From: Thermoflexales bacterium | Lineage (GTDB): Bacteria; Chloroflexota; Anaerolineae; J036; Brachytrichaceae | Direction: 5' to 3' | Length of the DNA: 35,635 nt | Assembly (NCBI GenBank): GCA_025056965.1 | Contig: JANWVF010000109.1 | Span: forward strand, 1 to 35,635 | Shown: piece by piece, positions 14,729 to 22,728 of the stretch | How positions within the stretch are numbered: position 1 is the stretch's first letter | Layout of the letters: every line of letters starts with the position of its first letter | Notes under the pieces: generated by a model | Seen by the model: only the letters and a program-made list of their open reading frames with translations | Database searches by the model: none | Told to the model about the DNA's origin: nothing | Program-made: the position numbers and the translations under genes

Positions 14729-15000
14729 ACGAGCCGATGCCCGATGATCCGGCCGCCATTATCCTGAGGCTGCTCCGGGCGCGCGGGGCCGGCAAGACGA
14801 TCTGCCCGTCTGAGGCGGCGCGCGCGTATGCGCCGGATGATTGGCGGCAGCACATGCCCGCCGTGCGCCGCGCCGCGTTCGACTTGGCCGACGCCGGTCA
14901 AATCGTCATCCTGCAGCGCGGCAAAGTCGTAGATGGCCGATCGGCCAAAGGTCCAATTCGCCTGGCGTTGCGCGAGCCCGAGCCCGCTGGATCATTGTGA
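14725..15000 (+). CDS. DUF3253-like small protein
   Basis: 91 aa from ATG 14725, which overlaps the upstream stop as ATGA and so is probably translationally coupled. The sequence IILRLLRARGAGKTICPSEA, then DDWRQHMPAVRRAAFDLADAG and IVILQRGKVVDG, resembles the small winged-helix-like DUF3253 family (recalled, not searched). The function of that family is not established. Coupling to the molybdopterin-heme fusion suggests a joint role. Its last 9 bp overlap the convergent histidine kinase gene. Confidence 0.72.
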   Translation: MNEPMPDDPAAIILRLLRARGAGKTICPSEAARAYAPDDWRQHMPAVRRAAFDLADAGQIVILQRGKVVDGRSAKGPIRLALREPEPAGSL

Positions 15001-16608
15001 CGCTGGCAGCACAATCCCGAATGTGCTGCCGCTGCCCGGCGCGCTCTCGACGAAAGCATCGCCGCCGTGGGCCTGGGCGATGCTCTTGACGATGGCCAGG
15101 CCGAGGCCGCTGCCGTCGGCGCGGTGGTTCTTGCCACGGTAAAAGCGCTCGAAGATGTGCGCCTGATCCTCGGGTGAGACGCCGATGCCGTTGTCGCGCA
15201 CCATCAGGCGCACGGCGTCGCCCTCGCTTGACGCGCTCACTTCCACGCGCCCGCCGGCCGGCGTGAACTTCAGCGCATTCTCGATTAGGTTCGATAGGGC
15301 GATCTCGACGCGCGCCCGGTCGCAGCGCACGCCGAGCGACGCGGGGTGAACGACGAGCTGGATACCTTTCTGTTCGGCGGCCTGCTCGAACGGTCGCGCC
15401 GCCGACGTTAGCAGCTCCGCGACGTCGTGCTCGGCGAGTTCGAGTTGGGCGATGCCGGCCTCGAGTCGAGAGAGATCGAGCAGGTTGCGCGTGATCCATT
15501 CCAGGCGGTCGAGCTGGGCGGCGTTCTGCGCCAAGAACTCCGCTCGCGTCGCCGGATCATCACCGGCAGGACCTTGCAGCAGCTCGGTGGCCATCTTCAG
15601 CGCGGTGATCGGCGTGCGCAGCTCGTGCGAGGCGTCGGCGATGAAGCGCCGCAGCGCATCGCGCTCTGCCGCGAGCGCCTGAAAGCTGGACTCCAGTTTG
15701 GCGGCCATGTCGTTGAAGCGACCGGCGAGCTGCTCGATCTCGTCGCCCGGCCGACCGGCGGCGCGCAGCGGCGCGCGCGCCGAGAGGTCTCCTTGTGCCA
15801 TGCGCGCGGCAGCGTTCGCCAGCGCGAGCAGTGGCGCCGACAAGCCCCGGCTAACCCACAAGCCAACCAACACGGCCAGGAGCGTCGCGCCCCCCGCGGC
15901 CAACATGAAGGCGTGCTGCGCGGTTTGTAGCGCGGCCTGGTTGATCGCCGATGCGCTGCTGAGTTCGACGTAGCCGACAATCGTGCGGCCCAGCTCGATA
16001 GGCACGCGCACATGCGTCGCGGCAGCGGGCAGCGTCTCCTCTGCCGAAGGGGAGGGCGGGAGAGCTTGCTGGCGCGGTTCGGAGAAGACGAATCGGTCGC
16101 CGTAGGGGCCAGGCACGCGCTCGACGACCATGACCTGTGCGCTCGGCGGTGCTTCGCCTGCGCCAAGTGCCTCCATCAGGCGCGCCTCGAACTCCGGATA
16201 GGCCATGCGCCGCGCAAATACGCCCGCGATAATCCAGGTCTGCCGCGCAGCCGCGACGGCCTCTGGGCGCACCTGCGGCGCGATCCACATCAGCCGGTCT
16301 GCCGCACCGCGTGGGCCGGAGTCCACGATCAGGTTACCGGCGGCGTCTAAGATGCGCACCTGGGCGTTGCCGAGGAAGGCGGCCATGTCGGCCAGCTGTT
16401 GCAGGCGATGGCGGTCGGACACCGGCTGGATCGAGCGGGCGGCCTGGCGGGCAATGGCTTGGGCGTTCATCGTCAGCAGCTCGGCCTCGCGCTGGGCCAG
16501 GTTGCTGCGGATCAGCCCAAGCGCTAGCGCGCCGACCACGCTGACGGTCAGCGCGGCCAGCAGGGCGTAGCTCAACACCAATCGCCAGCGAATCGAAAGC
16601 GTCCGCAT
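14992..16608 (-). CDS. Sensor histidine kinase (HAMP, HisKA, HATPase)
   Basis: 538-aa two-component sensor. Helix 1 is at about residues 8-33. An extracytoplasmic sensor domain (about 35-225) follows, then helix 2 at about 231-253 and a HAMP linker to about 308. The HisKA box FIADASHELRTPITALKM has phospho-accepting His328. The ATPase domain shows the N box around NLIENALKF (440-448), DNGIGVSPEDQAHIFERFY (472-490) and GSGLGLAIVKSI (499-510). All catalytic motifs are intact. It likely phosphorylates the OmpR-type regulator at 18121-18828. A triple-PDZ gene and a terminator-like hairpin lie between them, so kinase expression may be lower than, or separate from, that of the other two. No ribosome-binding site is visible before the ATG. 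Confidence 0.95.
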   Translation of the reverse strand: MRTLSIRWRLVLSYALLAALTVSVVGALALGLIRSNLAQREAELLTMNAQAIARQAARSIQPVSDRHRLQQLADMAAFLGNAQVRILDAAGNLIVDSGPRGAADRLMWIAPQVRPEAVAAARQTWIIAGVFARRMAYPEFEARLMEALGAGEAPPSAQVMVVERVPGPYGDRFVFSEPRQQALPPSPSAEETLPAAATHVRVPIELGRTIVGYVELSSASAINQAALQTAQHAFMLAAGGATLLAVLVGLWVSRGLSAPLLALANAAARMAQGDLSARAPLRAAGRPGDEIEQLAGRFNDMAAKLESSFQALAAERDALRRFIADASHELRTPITALKMATELLQGPAGDDPATRAEFLAQNAAQLDRLEWITRNLLDLSRLEAGIAQLELAEHDVAELLTSAARPFEQAAEQKGIQLVVHPASLGVRCDRARVEIALSNLIENALKFTPAGGRVEVSASSEGDAVRLMVRDNGIGVSPEDQAHIFERFYRGKNHRADGSGLGLAIVKSIAQAHGGDAFVESAPGSGSTFGIVLPASQ

Positions 16609-16636
16609 CTGGAATTTCGTCTGTCGCCAATGAGCG

Positions 16637-16680
16637 AAAAGCTCCTCGGGCCGCCGCGTGCGGCTGCGCGCCCGAGGAGC
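16637..16680 (-). terminator. Terminator-like hairpin between the PDZ and kinase genes
   Basis: Arms 16641-16651 and 16670-16680 are perfect 11-bp complements (GCTCCTCGGGC/GCCCGAGGAGC), with an 18-nt loop that can itself pair. Read on the minus strand, TTTT follows at 16640-16637. The U tract is short, so partial termination is more likely than full. Confidence 0.6.
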
Positions 16681-16713
16681 AACTTTAGGTCGAACGGAGT
16701 GCAGACATCCGCG

Positions 16714-17982
16714 CTATGCGTCGCGGCCGGCTATCTCCGGTTCTGGAACCTGCGGCAGCGGCAAAGGCAGATTGTCGAAGTTGAAGTCGAACGGCAACCG
16801 GAAGCCGGGAATGATCTCCAATCCTCGGCTGCCGTCACCTTCGGCGTTGGGCAGAAGGCGCTCGAAGCGGATGAATTGGCCGAGTGATACCCCCAAGTAG
16901 GCCGCGCCGGGCTTGTCGGGATTCTCGCCCAACGTCACGGTGACCTCGGTCGGCTTATCCTCGCCCTGTCGCTGCACGCTCAGCGTGAGGCGATCACCGG
17001 GTTTGCTGTTGCGCACCAGCTCGATCAGGTCTCGCGGCGATTTGATTGGCTTGTCGTTGACGGCAAGGATCACGTCGCCCTGCTTCAGGCCGGCCTTGTC
17101 GGCCGGGCTGCCGGCGGTGACGCCGTTGACCGTCACGGCTGCCCACGTCTCGGGCACCAAGTCACCCGGCGGAGTAGGGATGGGCAGATTGCGCGGCAGC
17201 CAGCCCATCGGGTCGAAGACCGGCGCGTAACGGATGCCGAGGTAGGCTGCGCCCTTCTTATCGGGGTTCTCGCCCAACGTCACCTTCAGTTTCTGCTCCG
17301 CGTCCTTGCGCGTGATGGTGAGCGTCACGGCATCCCCGGGCTTGAACTTAGCGATCAAGTCGGCCAGCGGATTCTGGGCGTCCAACCGAGTCTCGTTCAC
17401 GGCGATGATGATGTCGTCGCGTTGCAGGCCGGCCCGGGCCGCAGGGCTACCGCTGATGACCTCGGTGACACGCACCTGGTCGGAGAAGCGCCGCATCTGC
17501 TCTTCCAGCCCTTTGCGCAGCTGCTCCGGGTTGAACGGCAGTTGCCTGGGCGTTTGGCCGGGCGGAGCCGGCGTCGCTTCGGATGGCGAGGGCAGGCTCT
17601 GGAACGGCGTCACGCCGAGGATTGCGCGGCCGTCGGCCTCGCCCAGGGTGACCTTAAAAGTCAACTCGCGATCGCCCCGCATGACGCGGACTTGCACTTG
17701 TTCACCTGGCTTGAACTTGGCCAGCGCATCCCGCAGCGCTTGAGCGTCGTTGACCTCGACGTCGTTCACCCTGAGGATGATGTCGCCACGCCGGAGGCCG
17801 GCCTTGGCCGCCGGACCGCCGCGCTGCACGGAGACGATCAGCACCCCCTTCTCATCCTCGGCCTGGGTCGCCGCAGCGGTTGGGGTTTGAGCCGTCGCGG
17901 TGTAAACCGTCGTCGCCAAGCCGGCCAGGGCGATGGCGAACGCGGCGATGATGCCTATCACTTTCGTCATGCGTTTCGTCAT
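16714..17982 (-). CDS. Secreted protein with three PDZ domains and no protease domain
   Basis: 422 aa. Residues about 7-31 form a signal peptide or anchor (VIGIIAAFAIALAGLATTVY). Three PDZ modules follow. Each carries a GSPA/GGPA-KAGL-xxGDxIL-xVN core: GGPAAKAGLRRGDIILRVND, then GSPAARAGLQRDDIIIAVNE, then GSPADKAGLKQGDVILAVND. Linkers repeat GENPDKKGAAYLGI and GENPDKPGAAYLGV, which indicates internal duplication. No trypsin-like or S41 catalytic domain is present, so unlike DegP/HtrA it should only bind peptide tails. A good AAGGAG ribosome-binding site precedes the ATG. It lies between the response regulator and histidine kinase genes on the same strand, so it may present or titrate misfolded envelope proteins for the kinase. 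That role is an inference. Confidence 0.88.
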   Translation of the reverse strand: MTKRMTKVIGIIAAFAIALAGLATTVYTATAQTPTAAATQAEDEKGVLIVSVQRGGPAAKAGLRRGDIILRVNDVEVNDAQALRDALAKFKPGEQVQVRVMRGDRELTFKVTLGEADGRAILGVTPFQSLPSPSEATPAPPGQTPRQLPFNPEQLRKGLEEQMRRFSDQVRVTEVISGSPAARAGLQRDDIIIAVNETRLDAQNPLADLIAKFKPGDAVTLTITRKDAEQKLKVTLGENPDKKGAAYLGIRYAPVFDPMGWLPRNLPIPTPPGDLVPETWAAVTVNGVTAGSPADKAGLKQGDVILAVNDKPIKSPRDLIELVRNSKPGDRLTLSVQRQGEDKPTEVTVTLGENPDKPGAAYLGVSLGQFIRFERLLPNAEGDGSRGLEIIPGFRLPFDFNFDNLPLPLPQVPEPEIAGRDA

Positions 17983-18018
17983 ATCGCATCTCTCCTTGCA
18001 TCAGTAGTCTCATGGAGG

Positions 18019-18066
18019 ATTCTAGGCAGGAAGGTTTGCGAAACGCCGATCGGTTCGGTTAAGGTT
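18019..18066 (-). promoter_or_regulatory. Candidate regulated promoter of the PDZ gene
   Basis: On the minus strand TAGAAT (18024-18019) is a good -10, but no -35 matches. In its place are three AACC repeats at 18066-18063, 18060-18057 and 18055-18052, and a fourth at 18036-18033. Missing -35 boxes with short direct repeats are common where OmpR-type regulators activate. The adjacent regulator is the natural candidate. Not proven. Confidence 0.3.
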
Positions 18067-18120
18067 CTGCAACATTCACGATGCTTGCTCCGGCGCAGCC
18101 GGGTGGATCGGCGCCGGCGC

Positions 18121-18828
18121 TCACGGCTCGAATTTGTAGCCCACGCCGCGCATCGTCACCAGCCAACGCGGCTGGGCAGGGTCGTCTTCTAGCTTCTCGC
18201 GCAGGCGACGGATGTGTACGTCTACGGTGCGGTCGTCGCCAATGCCGCCGCTATAGCCCCAGACCGCCTCGATCAGCGCGCTGCGGCTGAAAGGTCGGCG
18301 CGGATGAGTGATGAGATGCCGCAGCAGTTTGAATTCGGTCGGCGTCAGTGGGATAGTCTTGCCCTCGCGCTCGACGACTAGGCGCGCCAAGTCCACTTTG
18401 ATGTTGCCGAAGATGATCTCCTGGGCATCGGCATCGTTAGGGGCTAACTCGCCGTATGTCCGGCGCAGGGCGGCGCGCACGCGCGAGATCAGCTCGCGCA
18501 GGCTGAACGGCTTTACGATGTAATCGTCGGCGCCCAGTTCCAGCCCGAGCACCTTGTCCACTTCTTCATCGCGGGCCGTGACCATCAGGATGGGTTGGCG
18601 CTTGCCCTCGGCGCGCAATTGGCGACAGACGTCGAAGCCGCTCATGCCCGGCAGCCGTGCGTCCAACAAGATCAGGTGAATGGCCTGCTTGCGGACCGCT
18701 TCGAGCGCCGCTTCGCCGGTTTCCACCACAGTGACGGCGAAGCCCTCTTGCTTCAGGGCGAACTCCAGCCCGCGCGAGATGGCGCGATCGTCCTCGACGA
18801 CCAGGATGTGATGGGTTGCTTCGGCCAT
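18121..18828 (-). CDS. OmpR/PhoB-family response regulator
   Basis: 235 aa from the ATG at 18828. A longer frame upstream codes for a hydrophobic, non-conserved stretch and is rejected. The receiver domain begins HILVVEDDRAISRGLEFAL with the acidic pair. The phosphorylatable Asp lies in LILLDARLPGMSGFDVC, and the conserved Lys in GADDYIVKPFSLREL. The C-terminal winged helix ends with GYSGGIGDDRTVDVHIRRLR and VRGVGYKFEP-like MRGVGYKFEP. It binds DNA, usually as a dimer at direct repeats. No Shine-Dalgarno is seen before the ATG. It heads the RR-PDZ-HK cluster and probably controls it. The L,D-transpeptidase-like gene is divergent, 107 bp away. Confidence 0.95.
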   Translation of the reverse strand: MAEATHHILVVEDDRAISRGLEFALKQEGFAVTVVETGEAALEAVRKQAIHLILLDARLPGMSGFDVCRQLRAEGKRQPILMVTARDEEVDKVLGLELGADDYIVKPFSLRELISRVRAALRRTYGELAPNDADAQEIIFGNIKVDLARLVVEREGKTIPLTPTEFKLLRHLITHPRRPFSRSALIEAVWGYSGGIGDDRTVDVHIRRLREKLEDDPAQPRWLVTMRGVGYKFEP

Positions 18829-18935: not shown

Positions 18936-19373
18936 ATGGATCGCATCGGTAAGCTCTTCTGTGTCCTCAGCGCCTTGCTGGCTGCTTTATCTGCTTTTGC
19001 ACTGCCGCCTTCGCCCGCCGAGGCCGCTGGCCGCAAGCGCATCGTGGTCGTCCTCAGGGAGCAGCGCGTCTACGCTTACGAAGGTAACACCGTAGTCTTT
19101 GCCACGCGGGCGAACGTGCGCGGCGCCAAGCGGGGCAACTTCCGCATCCGGAGCAAGATTCCGATGGCCAAGTCCTCGGTGCTGGGATGGAAGCTGCCAT
19201 ATTGGATGGGGATCTACTATGTCGGCCGCATTGAGAATGGCTTTCACGGTTACTCAATTCGGTCGAACGGGGCGTTGGCGGCGAACTCGCTCGGCTGTAT
19301 CGTGATGCCCACCCCTGCGGCGGCATGGCTCTATCGCTGGGCTCGCATCGGCACGCCCGTCACGATCCGCTAA
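18936..19373 (+). CDS. Secreted L,D-transpeptidase-like (YkuD-fold) protein with altered motif
   Basis: 145 aa, with a signal peptide (about 1-31, ending PAEAAG) and a single YkuD-type catalytic domain. The segment LPYWMGIYYVGRIENGFHGY is typical and gives His104. After 13 residues comes SLGCIVM with the likely nucleophile Cys121. In most family members this reads SHGCIR/N. Here His becomes Leu and the Arg/Asn becomes Val, so activity or substrate may be changed. Active enzymes cross-link peptidoglycan or attach proteins to it. Start is ATG 18936 with an AGGAG site upstream. It is divergent from the response regulator and could belong to its regulon. Its stop overlaps the convergent tricorn gene by 4 bp. 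Confidence 0.8.
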   Translation: MDRIGKLFCVLSALLAALSAFALPPSPAEAAGRKRIVVVLREQRVYAYEGNTVVFATRANVRGAKRGNFRIRSKIPMAKSSVLGWKLPYWMGIYYVGRIENGFHGYSIRSNGALAANSLGCIVMPTPAAAWLYRWARIGTPVTIR

Positions 19374-22300
19374 CGAAGCCGAGGCGCAGCGCGGCTCGGC
19401 CGTGCATCGAAGTCGGGAAGGCGCGGCGGGTTGGCTTCCATCAGGCGTTGAATTTCATGGATGGCGCGCTCGAGCTGCGCATCGCAGCCGTTCACCCAGT
19501 CTTGGGGCGTGTTGTCTATCACGATGTCCGGCTCGACGCCGTAGTTTTCGAGCCGCCAATCCACGTCGTGGAACCACAGCGCAAACTCCGGCTGGGTGGT
19601 GATCGTGCCATCGGTCAGCGTATGTTGAGGCGAGATGCCGATCACGCCACCCCAGGTACGCATGCCGATGAGCGGTCCCAGCTTTAGGGCCTTGAAGCCA
19701 TGGGCGAACACGTCGCCATCGCTGCCGGTGTATTCATTAGCGATGGCGACCAGCGGGCCAAGCACCGATTCCTCGGGGTAGGGGATGGGCACTTTTGCCC
19801 AGCGCGCTACGTCGTAGCCGATGCGTCGGCGGGCCAGCTTCTCCAGGAGCAACTGAGAGACGTGCCCCCCCGCGTTGTAGCGCACATCTACGATGAGCGC
19901 GTCGCGTTCTAGCTCGGCTAAGAAGCCGCGGTGGAACTCGGCGAAGCCGCGGGGCATCATGTCGGGGATGTGCACGTAGCCGGCGCGTCCGTCGGTCGCC
20001 TCGTGCACGCGGCGACGGTTGCGCTCCACCCAGTCGCGGTACCAGGCACGCCGGTCGTCGTGCAGCGTCCGAACGATTACCACCCTAGGGCTCGGCGGCG
20101 AAGAATCCGAATTCGGTCGAGCGACGGTGAGCGCCACGTCCACGCCGGCCTGGTTAACCAGCAGCATGTGGGGTGAAAGCTCATGCGCCAGCTTGACGCC
20201 GTTGATGGCGAGCAGGCGATCCCCCGGCCGGACGCTCACGCCGGGCGCGTTGAGCGGAGAATCGTCCTTGGGGGACCACGTGTCGCCTTGTGCGATGCGC
20301 GTGACGCGCCAGACCTGCTCGCCTGCGTCCCAGGCGAACTCGGCGGCCAGCCGGCCGAGTGAGACCGAGCGCGGGTTGTGACGATAGTCGCCGCCGTACT
20401 CGTAGCAGTGCGATGTGCCCAACTCGCCCTGCATTTCCCACATCAGGTCGCTGAACTCGCTGCGGCTGCTCACCCGCTCGACCAGCGGCAGGTAGGTGTC
20501 GTAGACGGCCTTCCAGTCCACCTGCGACATGTCCGGCGTCCAGAATTGGTCGCGCTGCAACCGCCAGGCCTCGCGGAACATCTGTCGCCATTCCGCGGCG
20601 GGGTTGACGCTGACGTTGACCCGACCTAGGTCAATCCAGCCGGTCTTGCGCGGTGGGCCGTCGTTGGTCGGCTGTGCCCCCACCTTGATCACGCGCAACC
20701 GCGCGCCGGTCGAATAGACCAGCCACTGTCCGTTGGCCGACAAGGAGAAATCGCGCACGCCCTCCGCGATGTCTTCTTCCTTGCGCGACTCCAGGTCGTA
20801 GCACTTCAGCCGAGATGGCGGCTCGTGCGAATCGTTAAGTGCGCCGTTCGATGCCGACTCTGGGGCGTAGCTGGTGTAGAAGACGTGCTTGCCGTTGCCG
20901 GCACCTGCGATTTTGCGATACAAACCTTCGCGTACCGGGAAGGCCAGCACGCGCTTCTGGATGCCGTCTAGGTCAATCACCAGCTTAGGCCTTTCGCGCT
21001 TGCCTTTGTCCCTGTTGTTGGGCGTCGTCTCGTCTTCGCCTTCTCGGTCGTTCTCTTGGTCGTCCGCGTCCGCCTCTTTGGGTGGCAGCGGCATGAACGG
21101 TGATGGCGTGTCTCGCTGCAGGGTGATCAGACAGGGGATCATGCCGCGTGGGAAGCTCAGCTCGAACTGTAAGTTGTCGTATACCGGCGAGAAAACGCGC
21201 GACGAAAGGAAGAACAGATATTTGCCGGTCGGGTCGAAGGCCGGCTTAATGTCGGCCAGCACCGGATCGGTGATCTGGGTGATCTGTCCGGTCGCGCCGT
21301 GCCACAACTTGATCGCCGTGCGGCGCAGCGAGATTGAGCAGTCGTAGGCCAGCCACTCGCCGTCCGGAGACCAGTCGAAGCCTTGGATGGGTTTACTCAC
21401 GCCGCGATCTACAACGGTTAGGGTCTCGCGCTCGTGGTCGTAGACGACGATCTCGTAGCGGTGATTGGTGAACGCGATTTGGCCCTTCACCGGATTGATT
21501 TTGATGGCGGTGATGCGGCCGGTGTCCATCCAAGGCGCGCGCTCGACCGGCGCGTCGCCCGCAAAGGCGAAACTCTGCCATGTCTCCTCGCCGCCCTCAT
21601 CGGTGATGGCGAGCACGGTCTCGTCACTCGTCCAAACCGGCAGGCGGTAGCGCACACCATCGGGCACGCCGTGCTGGGTGACCGCGCCTTCGTAGTTGTA
21701 GAAGGTGTAGAGCTTGCCGCGCGTAGTGATGGCCAGCTTGTCGCCCTTAGGGCTGATGGCGAAGCCGTCTAGGCTCACGCCAGCGTAGGAGAACTTGCGC
21801 TGGCGTTGCGTTTGCGGCGATCGCCACTCGATGGGGATGATCTGCGAGCGGCCCGTCGCTGGGTCGAAGACGTATAGGTCGGCGCCGGCGTGGTATACGA
21901 TGCGCCGGCCATCGGTGGTGGCGTTGCGCACGTAGAAATCGCGATGCGCCGTATGGCGACGTAGTTGCTTGCCGCTTGGCGTGCACGAATACAGGTTGCC
22001 GATGCCCTCGTGGTCGCTGATGAAGTAGATGCGGTTGTCGTCTAGCCACATCGGCGAAGCCAAATTGCTGTCTAGCTCGATCAGCGGCTTCCAGTTGCCG
22101 TCGCCGCGCAGGTCAATCCACAAGCGGCCGGCCATGCCGCCTCGATAGCGCTTCCAGCGTGCGGGGTCGCCGGTGTTGCGGCCGATGACCGCGCCGCCGT
22201 GCGGTCCGTAGGCAATAGTGCGCGCTGGTCCGCAGGGGATGCGCTGTGGATGTGCCGGATCATCGAGGGCGACGGCGTAAAGGAAGGTCATGTGATCGAA

Positions 22301-22624
22301 GGGCTGGTTGGCGGCGCTGGCAAAGACCACGCGGCCGTCGCGCGTCCAGCCGACTACGTCGCAGTCACCACCCAGGTAGGTCAGACGTCGCGGCGCGCCG
22401 CCCAACGCAGGCATCACATAGACCTCTCCGCCGCCTTCATCTTGGCCGGTGAAGGCTAGCCATTGGCCGTCGGGTGAGAAGCGCGGCGATGATTCCTCGT
22501 CCGGCGCAGCGGTGAGCCGGCGCGGGATGCCGCCCTTGACCGAGACCAGCCACAAATCGTCCTCGCACACGAACGCAACGATGTCTCTGAAGATAGTGGG
22601 GAAGCGATAGTAGCCAGGCGCCAT
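19370..22624 (-). CDS. Tricorn protease homologue
   Basis: About 1084 aa from ATG 22624. A TTG 12 nt upstream is less likely. The order is as in archaeal tricorn: N-terminal beta-propeller repeats (LWLVSVKGGIPRRLT, SPDGQWLAFTG and others, to about 640), a mixed domain with GTSHCYEYGG (Ser738-His739), a PDZ module (LNAPGVSVRPGDRLLAINGV), and a C-terminal S41-type domain. In NEYTGSDGD the nucleophile serine falls at about 968 and Asp at 969, near the Thermoplasma positions 965 and 966. A charged, low-complexity insert (about 500-530) separates the propellers. In tricorn the complex degrades peptides released by other proteases in the cytoplasm. No signal peptide is visible here. A TAAAAT hexamer 11 nt before the ATG and the lack of a Shine-Dalgarno suggest a very short leader. 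Confidence 0.93.
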   Translation of the reverse strand: MAPGYYRFPTIFRDIVAFVCEDDLWLVSVKGGIPRRLTAAPDEESSPRFSPDGQWLAFTGQDEGGGEVYVMPALGGAPRRLTYLGGDCDVVGWTRDGRVVFASAANQPFDHMTFLYAVALDDPAHPQRIPCGPARTIAYGPHGGAVIGRNTGDPARWKRYRGGMAGRLWIDLRGDGNWKPLIELDSNLASPMWLDDNRIYFISDHEGIGNLYSCTPSGKQLRRHTAHRDFYVRNATTDGRRIVYHAGADLYVFDPATGRSQIIPIEWRSPQTQRQRKFSYAGVSLDGFAISPKGDKLAITTRGKLYTFYNYEGAVTQHGVPDGVRYRLPVWTSDETVLAITDEGGEETWQSFAFAGDAPVERAPWMDTGRITAIKINPVKGQIAFTNHRYEIVVYDHERETLTVVDRGVSKPIQGFDWSPDGEWLAYDCSISLRRTAIKLWHGATGQITQITDPVLADIKPAFDPTGKYLFFLSSRVFSPVYDNLQFELSFPRGMIPCLITLQRDTPSPFMPLPPKEADADDQENDREGEDETTPNNRDKGKRERPKLVIDLDGIQKRVLAFPVREGLYRKIAGAGNGKHVFYTSYAPESASNGALNDSHEPPSRLKCYDLESRKEEDIAEGVRDFSLSANGQWLVYSTGARLRVIKVGAQPTNDGPPRKTGWIDLGRVNVSVNPAAEWRQMFREAWRLQRDQFWTPDMSQVDWKAVYDTYLPLVERVSSRSEFSDLMWEMQGELGTSHCYEYGGDYRHNPRSVSLGRLAAEFAWDAGEQVWRVTRIAQGDTWSPKDDSPLNAPGVSVRPGDRLLAINGVKLAHELSPHMLLVNQAGVDVALTVARPNSDSSPPSPRVVIVRTLHDDRRAWYRDWVERNRRRVHEATDGRAGYVHIPDMMPRGFAEFHRGFLAELERDALIVDVRYNAGGHVSQLLLEKLARRRIGYDVARWAKVPIPYPEESVLGPLVAIANEYTGSDGDVFAHGFKALKLGPLIGMRTWGGVIGISPQHTLTDGTITTQPEFALWFHDVDWRLENYGVEPDIVIDNTPQDWVNGCDAQLERAIHEIQRLMEANPPRLPDFDARPSRAAPRLR

Positions 22625-22728
22625 GAACGACGCCAATTTTAAGGGAGCGAGGCGCGATGCTGACCAATCGTTTCAACCGGAGACGCCTCGGGCGGGCCGC
22701 GTTCTAAGCAGGGGCAGGCGTGGCAGCG

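Follow-up and report, generated by a model that had tools for sequence, protein, structure and literature searches.

Two-component systems that operate together with an exported accessory protein are known from several bacterial lineages. In Actinomycetota, the regulator MtrA, the kinase MtrB and the extracytoplasmic lipoprotein LpqB form a three-gene unit, and proteases of the HtrA type are linked to envelope-stress signaling (HtrA/DegP/DegS, CssRS-HtrA and MprAB-PepD). In E. coli, CpxP is exported, no promoter responds more strongly to the CpxA-CpxR pair than that of its gene, and misfolded protein displaces it from the kinase (PMC4160245, PMC4817254). WalRK of Bacillota combines an OmpR-type regulator and direct-repeat operators with a PDC-type kinase domain and the operon-encoded accessories YycH and YycI (PMC10746227), whereas in Streptomyces the secreted protein HbpS, the sensor kinase SenS and the regulator SenR constitute one three-component pathway (PMC4991794), HbpS being an octameric haem- and iron-binding protein (PMC3754957). 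The sections of a survey of microbial PDZ proteins considered here describe a kinase family with a PDZ domain fused in (ComP), and a trio of regulator, PDZ protein and kinase is not among the arrangements in these sections (PMC6411480). A literature search returned no report of a PDZ protein encoded together with a kinase and a regulator, or in an accessory role; accessory exported proteins as such are established (CpxP, YycH/YycI, LpqB, HbpS), and a PDZ protein in such a role would be new. Anaerolineae are widespread and have hardly been studied by genetics; we know of no described envelope-stress pathway for this class, and the literature search found none.

The stretch of 35,635 nucleotides analyzed here (the window) belongs to a 3.1 Mb genome of the Chloroflexota class Anaerolineae; among named relatives, Candidatus Roseilinea and an uncultured Anaerolineae bacterium are the nearest to it. 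It encodes a response regulator, a PDZ protein and a sensor histidine kinase in this order on the minus strand (Table 1); coordinates and Pfam domains bear out the initial annotation in position, strand and order of the three genes. Receiver and winged helix in the regulator and HAMP, HisKA and HATPase in the kinase all exceed the Pfam gathering score, identifying the pair as a two-component system, and the regulator orthologues of seven genus relatives are 91–95% identical. The best NCBIfam models of the regulator are YycF, MtrA and PhoB, every one below cut-off. MtrA and MtrB are among the best models for the pair, yet their cut-offs are not reached (239/300 and 231/450), nor are the equivalog cut-offs of WalRK (241/340 and 217/725 bits). 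The accessory proteins differ as well: YycH and YycI find their counterpart here in a PDZ protein, encoded between regulator and kinase, and neither LpqB nor HbpS is a PDZ protein. SenR is of a different class from the OmpR/PhoB-type regulator found here. With CpxP-CpxA-CpxR the locus shares an accessory protein that is predicted here to be exported and to have its gene under its own two-component system; CpxP is, however, a small LTxxQ protein, the gene order differs, and contact of the accessory protein with the kinase is putative here.

Table 1 Features of the regulator-PDZ-kinase locus, in window coordinates.
Feature	Position	Strand	Basis
Response regulator, OmpR/PhoB type	18124–18828 (start codon 18828, stop codon 18121–18123)	−	Pfam Response_reg and Trans_reg_C
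Triple-PDZ protein, predicted secreted, 422 aa, no protease domain	16714–17982	−	Three Pfam PDZ_2 stretches; AlphaFold2 model
PDZ1 (residues 42–113), without the LGV strand with which a complete HtrA-type PDZ begins	17644–17859	−	Pfam profile matched from position 9; alignment
C-terminal part of PDZ protein: extra LGV strand (residues 360–370), Pro-rich tail, GRDA-COOH	16717–16905	−	Alignment; low pLDDT
Predicted PDZ promoter	17999–18075	−	Conserved block in genus alignment; one site per genome; class-wide fixed spacing to −10
Predicted operator, from TTGCAGAACCTTAACCGAA	18072–18054 (TTGCAGAACCTTAACCGAA); six-mers near 18063–18058, 18052–18047, 18039–18034	−	
−10-like TAGAAT of predicted PDZ promoter	18024–18019	−	
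Terminator-like hairpin, PDZ-kinase gap	16637–16680	−	−31.7 kcal/mol, followed by TTTT
Sensor histidine kinase, 538 aa, extracytoplasmic PDC/Cache-like domain	14992–16608	−	Pfam HAMP, HisKA, HATPase_c; low-confidence sensor model
YkuD (L,D-transpeptidase-like) gene, divergent	18936–19373	+	

The middle protein was initially described as three PDZ domains behind a signal peptide without a protease, and this description holds. Its N-terminus, MTKRMTKVIGIIAAFAIALAGLATTVYTATA followed by Q, looks by eye like a signal peptide of the classical kind, cleaved at an AxA site, suggesting export. All families detected by the Pfam scan are of the PDZ type, with neither a trypsin or other peptidase domain nor the LTxxQ domain of CpxP. 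The PDZ units are closest to those of HtrA/DegP, which carry a protease domain that is absent here; a broken HtrA was considered as the origin and rejected, there being no protease remnant and the three units being kept across families. AlphaFold2 models three PDZ cores (pLDDT about 70–88) joined by disordered linkers. The LGV strand missing from PDZ1 and the extra one after PDZ3 recur in all family members, and the latter may complete PDZ1 within or between molecules. The glycines of the PDZ-groove loops are invariant. Across the class, most of these proteins have three units, and some have two or four. Membership of the PDZ family suggests that the protein would bind unfolded or damaged client proteins; the parallel drawn initially to DegS and porins fits poorly, because the general view is that Chloroflexota have no outer membrane with porins. 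The last residue of the tail is hydrophobic, namely A, L or I, in 20 of 24 genus groups (with ends such as GRDA, GESL, GNTL, GNEA and GPQA) versus 26% of the other proteins encoded at the loci, with a p-value of 1e-8 that is optimistic, as genus groups are not fully independent. Such an end is the kind of C-terminus that PDZ domains bind, and binding of the protein to its own tail is therefore a serious possibility. An aromatic stretch before the tail, LPFDFNFDNLPLP (within 16717–16905), looks conserved in kind.

The trio was followed at the level of sequence through the 28 genomes of the window's family and 396 genomes of the class Anaerolineae, many of them draft assemblies. Within the family, PDZ protein and kinase orthologue occupy the same four genera and are absent from the other four, and the PDZ gene immediately precedes the kinase gene in every genome that has both. 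Across the class, the PDZ protein is present in 66 genomes and 63 kinase orthologues were counted (E up to 1e-69), 58 of which have the PDZ gene directly upstream (57 on the same strand by search, and G186 on inspection); the other five are one locus split by a contig end and four without an intact PDZ gene. The regulator lies upstream in most class loci, and the gene order is retained at 30–55% identity across many families. A phylum sample of 400 genomes, for which the number from other classes is not given, contained no match outside the class at 1e-40. A PDZ gene apart from the pair in related genomes would have refuted the initial annotation by its own test; this test did not refute it, the gene order being conserved far beyond chance. 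In G001, G002, G004 and G026 the single regulator orthologue lies elsewhere in the genome and the PDZ-kinase pair is intact; the link between these two is therefore tighter than their link to the regulator.

Losses occur in both directions. G018 (97% complete) keeps the PDZ gene (54–57% identical) and has no orthologue of kinase or regulator, and G108 keeps the PDZ gene and has no kinase match. Conversely, regulator and kinase follow each other with no gene between in G126, and in three g17 genomes other genes, for example a PIN-domain gene, are inserted, with the signal-peptide end of the PDZ protein recognizable in two. Given these PDZ-only genomes and the four that have the kinase without an intact PDZ gene, neither protein strictly needs the other. 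At loci L205, L206 and L207, where the PDZ gene is missing or reduced to the part for the signal peptide, a PIN-domain gene is inserted between regulator and kinase in all three and a TnpB-like transposon gene in L205.

The gap between regulator and PDZ gene is variable in the genus alignment except for a single block, TTGCNNAACCTTAACCGAA..., which ends in the −10-like TAGAAT. Aligning the sites class-wide resolves a predicted operator of three repeats, CTTAAC-N5-GGCAAC-N5-TTTCAA, followed at constant distance by TACACT as −10; TGTAAC replaces CTTAAC in the loci of family f14. Tandem six-mers at about 11 bp beside a −10 are the arrangement of OmpR/PhoB-type activators, for which the WalR motif TGTHH-N6-WGTNDD may be compared (PMC10746227). 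The operator precedes the PDZ gene in all 19 family loci with the system and, at no fewer than 12 of 13 positions, in 21 of 32 loci outside the family (0.03 expected); the score was built from the family loci, so that the extra-family count is the independent test, and related genomes are not independent events. Two sets of control regions yielded no operator: 24 lying upstream of regulator genes and 29 immediately preceding kinase genes.

Regulon scans were carried out as pattern searches. Eight genomes of the genus each have a single copy of TTRCNNAACCTTAAC, in every case before the PDZ gene, and the ninth genome, G018, has none. With two mismatches allowed, the sole addition was a tandem second copy in G023, and no broader regulon appeared in the window's genus. 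Six sites away from the PDZ gene were found in genera g2, g4 and g8, about as many as with a reversed-pattern control. At two loci of genus g8 (L109 in G025 and L105 in G027), operator-like sites lie in the same gap, which has an ABC transporter operon on one side and the gene of a Gfo/Idh-type oxidoreductase on the other; they may represent a further target or chance.

The natural losses separate the operator from the gene that it precedes. In G018 part of the conserved block is left (TTAGAATCC) and the operator is gone, and the PDZ gene of G108 has no operator before it; G126 and the three g17 genomes still carry an operator-like site between regulator and kinase (11 of 13 positions), in which all three repeats can be made out by eye. 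The presence of the operator thus goes with that of the regulator and not with that of the PDZ gene, in at least two events each way, which are few but all concordant. We consider it very probable that the regulator directly controls transcription of the PDZ gene, and the operator evidence is strong for a gene that would be induced by its own regulator, activation being the indicated direction of control because the operator sits at the −35 position. The PDZ protein would then be the main, and in the genus possibly the only, direct output of the system. The initial view of regulator, PDZ protein and kinase as one functional unit is sustained by the class-wide pairing of PDZ protein and kinase and by an operator that tracks the regulator.

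A second target is predicted in genus g129. The operator precedes the PDZ gene in all 15 genomes of this genus, and in four of them (G348, G321, G291 and G250; loci L238, L239, L240 and L254) a second site with the same repeats and the same −10 spacing lies about 8 kb away, before the gene of an M16 metallopeptidase. The peptidase has a lipobox-like N-terminus (read by eye) and is a predicted surface lipoprotein. Upstream of this gene in the other g129 genomes, a weaker but recognizable array is found in several and none in the rest. The regulon offers no other hint at function, and this one points to turnover of proteins outside the membrane and to quality control in the envelope.

The extracytoplasmic part of the kinase spans about residues 35–232. 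The best-matching chains to a model of this region are WalK (Z 12.4), the closest, and CitA (Z 9.2), with DctB also among the neighbors; as the model is poor (pLDDT 52), only a low-confidence resemblance in fold to the PDC-type domains of WalK and CitA is claimed. No solved structure matched the sensor region by sequence except at HAMP. Domains of the PDC-like type usually bind small ligands. A mirror-tree test gave no specific signal between PDZ protein and sensor (partial correlations of 0.20 for the sensor, 0.16 for the kinase core and 0.38 for the regulator).

We lean toward a three-component envelope signaling module in which the PDZ protein would probably serve as principal output and, in the manner of CpxP, act back on the kinase to modulate it, and rate this complete scheme somewhat better than even. 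The phosphorylated regulator would bind the three six-mers, which stand in for a −35 element, on one face of the DNA (11-bp period); bound there, it would activate the PDZ promoter, the comparative evidence being strong and the activation following from operator position. The transcript would continue into the kinase gene, attenuated by a hairpin in some genomes. Once exported, the PDZ protein would use its grooves to bind damaged envelope proteins, either at an exposed C-terminus or at an extended segment, and, when unoccupied, damp the kinase via the extracytoplasmic PDC-like domain. Clients, or the protein's own C-terminal tail, would compete for it, which would free the kinase and raise production of the PDZ protein, a negative feedback of the CpxP kind. 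In this scheme export, client binding, contact with the kinase and feedback on it are inferred. Should the kinase indeed receive a signal from the PDZ array, sensing of unfolded proteins by PDZ domains would extend from proteases (DegS) to two-component kinases. For the Anaerolineae, the locus amounts to a predicted envelope-stress pathway: three genes conserved together, a defined DNA site whose regulon in the genus of the window is a single gene, and natural losses in both directions. The operator makes the relation between regulator and target directly testable.

A rival reading, plausible and to us the less probable of the two, keeps the same control of the PDZ gene by the regulator and dispenses with any signal back: the PDZ protein would be a secreted holdase or adaptor made on demand, while the kinase senses through its PDC-like domain. 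Retention of the PDZ gene without regulator and kinase in G018, and without kinase or operator in G108, indicates that the protein has a use of its own, and regulator and kinase persist in four genomes whose PDZ gene is missing or incomplete. The small ligands usual for PDC-like domains, with CitA and DctB as neighbors of the sensor, and the lack of PDZ-sensor co-variation agree with this reading too. It leaves unexplained, however, why PDZ and kinase genes stay adjacent when the regulator moves away, and why other small signal-bearing proteins are encoded in the same slot beside distant kinases. Upstream of such kinases (same type, 30–42% identical), the slot encodes a protein with one PDZ domain at L208 and L210. 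Elsewhere (L212–L221) it encodes unrelated proteins of about 200 residues whose N-terminus resembles a signal peptide, and no Pfam match was obtained for the two of the latter that were scanned. From this variety, the position before kinases of this type seems to be a general one for accessory exported proteins. At several of the L212–L221 loci, a gene for an ABC-type MacB-like permease lies just before that of the slot protein.

Beyond the feedback module of the window, a tentative proposal, which we regard as having a limited chance of being correct, is a class-wide envelope quality control in which a protease-free PDZ array is both client sensor and regulated output, its own tail (GESL, GNTL, GRDA) would compete with clients and set the threshold, and the slot would take exchangeable secreted sensors. 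That the PDZ protein is instead a detached HtrA-like array handing C-termini to a separate envelope protease (M16 in g129, HtrA or S41 elsewhere) is improbable: HtrA/DegP has the PDZ units most similar to its own and the operator also stands before the M16 gene in g129, but most loci have no linked protease gene, and the M16 gene, found only beside g129 loci, is missing from the two g92 loci inspected. Strongly disfavored, with hardly any probability left, is a PDZ gene merely lying between regulator and kinase by descent without a regulatory link, since the order, which relatives all found in one class could partly inherit passively, is kept across many families at such low identity, with an operator far above chance that comes and goes with the regulator.

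Two neighboring elements of the window are of narrower distribution. The hairpin before the kinase gene lies exactly where the initial annotation had placed it, as a 40-nt stem-loop, and is not universal: terminator-like hairpins of differing sequence occur there in 13 of 48 loci (3.1 expected), and a terminator as a universal feature was rejected. The L,D-transpeptidase gene, initially placed in the same regulon, is absent beside the regulator in 3 of 8 genus loci, and the PDZ promoter is the one place in this genome with the operator; on both grounds it was discarded as a co-regulated gene. The gene of a Tricorn-like protease (Tricorn_C1, PDZ_Tricorn, peptidase S41; 19370–22636, minus strand) adjoins the YkuD gene, and only some genus relatives have it there. 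In genus g2 (L040 and L063), the gap between PDZ and kinase genes contains arrays of the short repeats GTTAATG/ATTAACC in both orientations, able to form a long stem.
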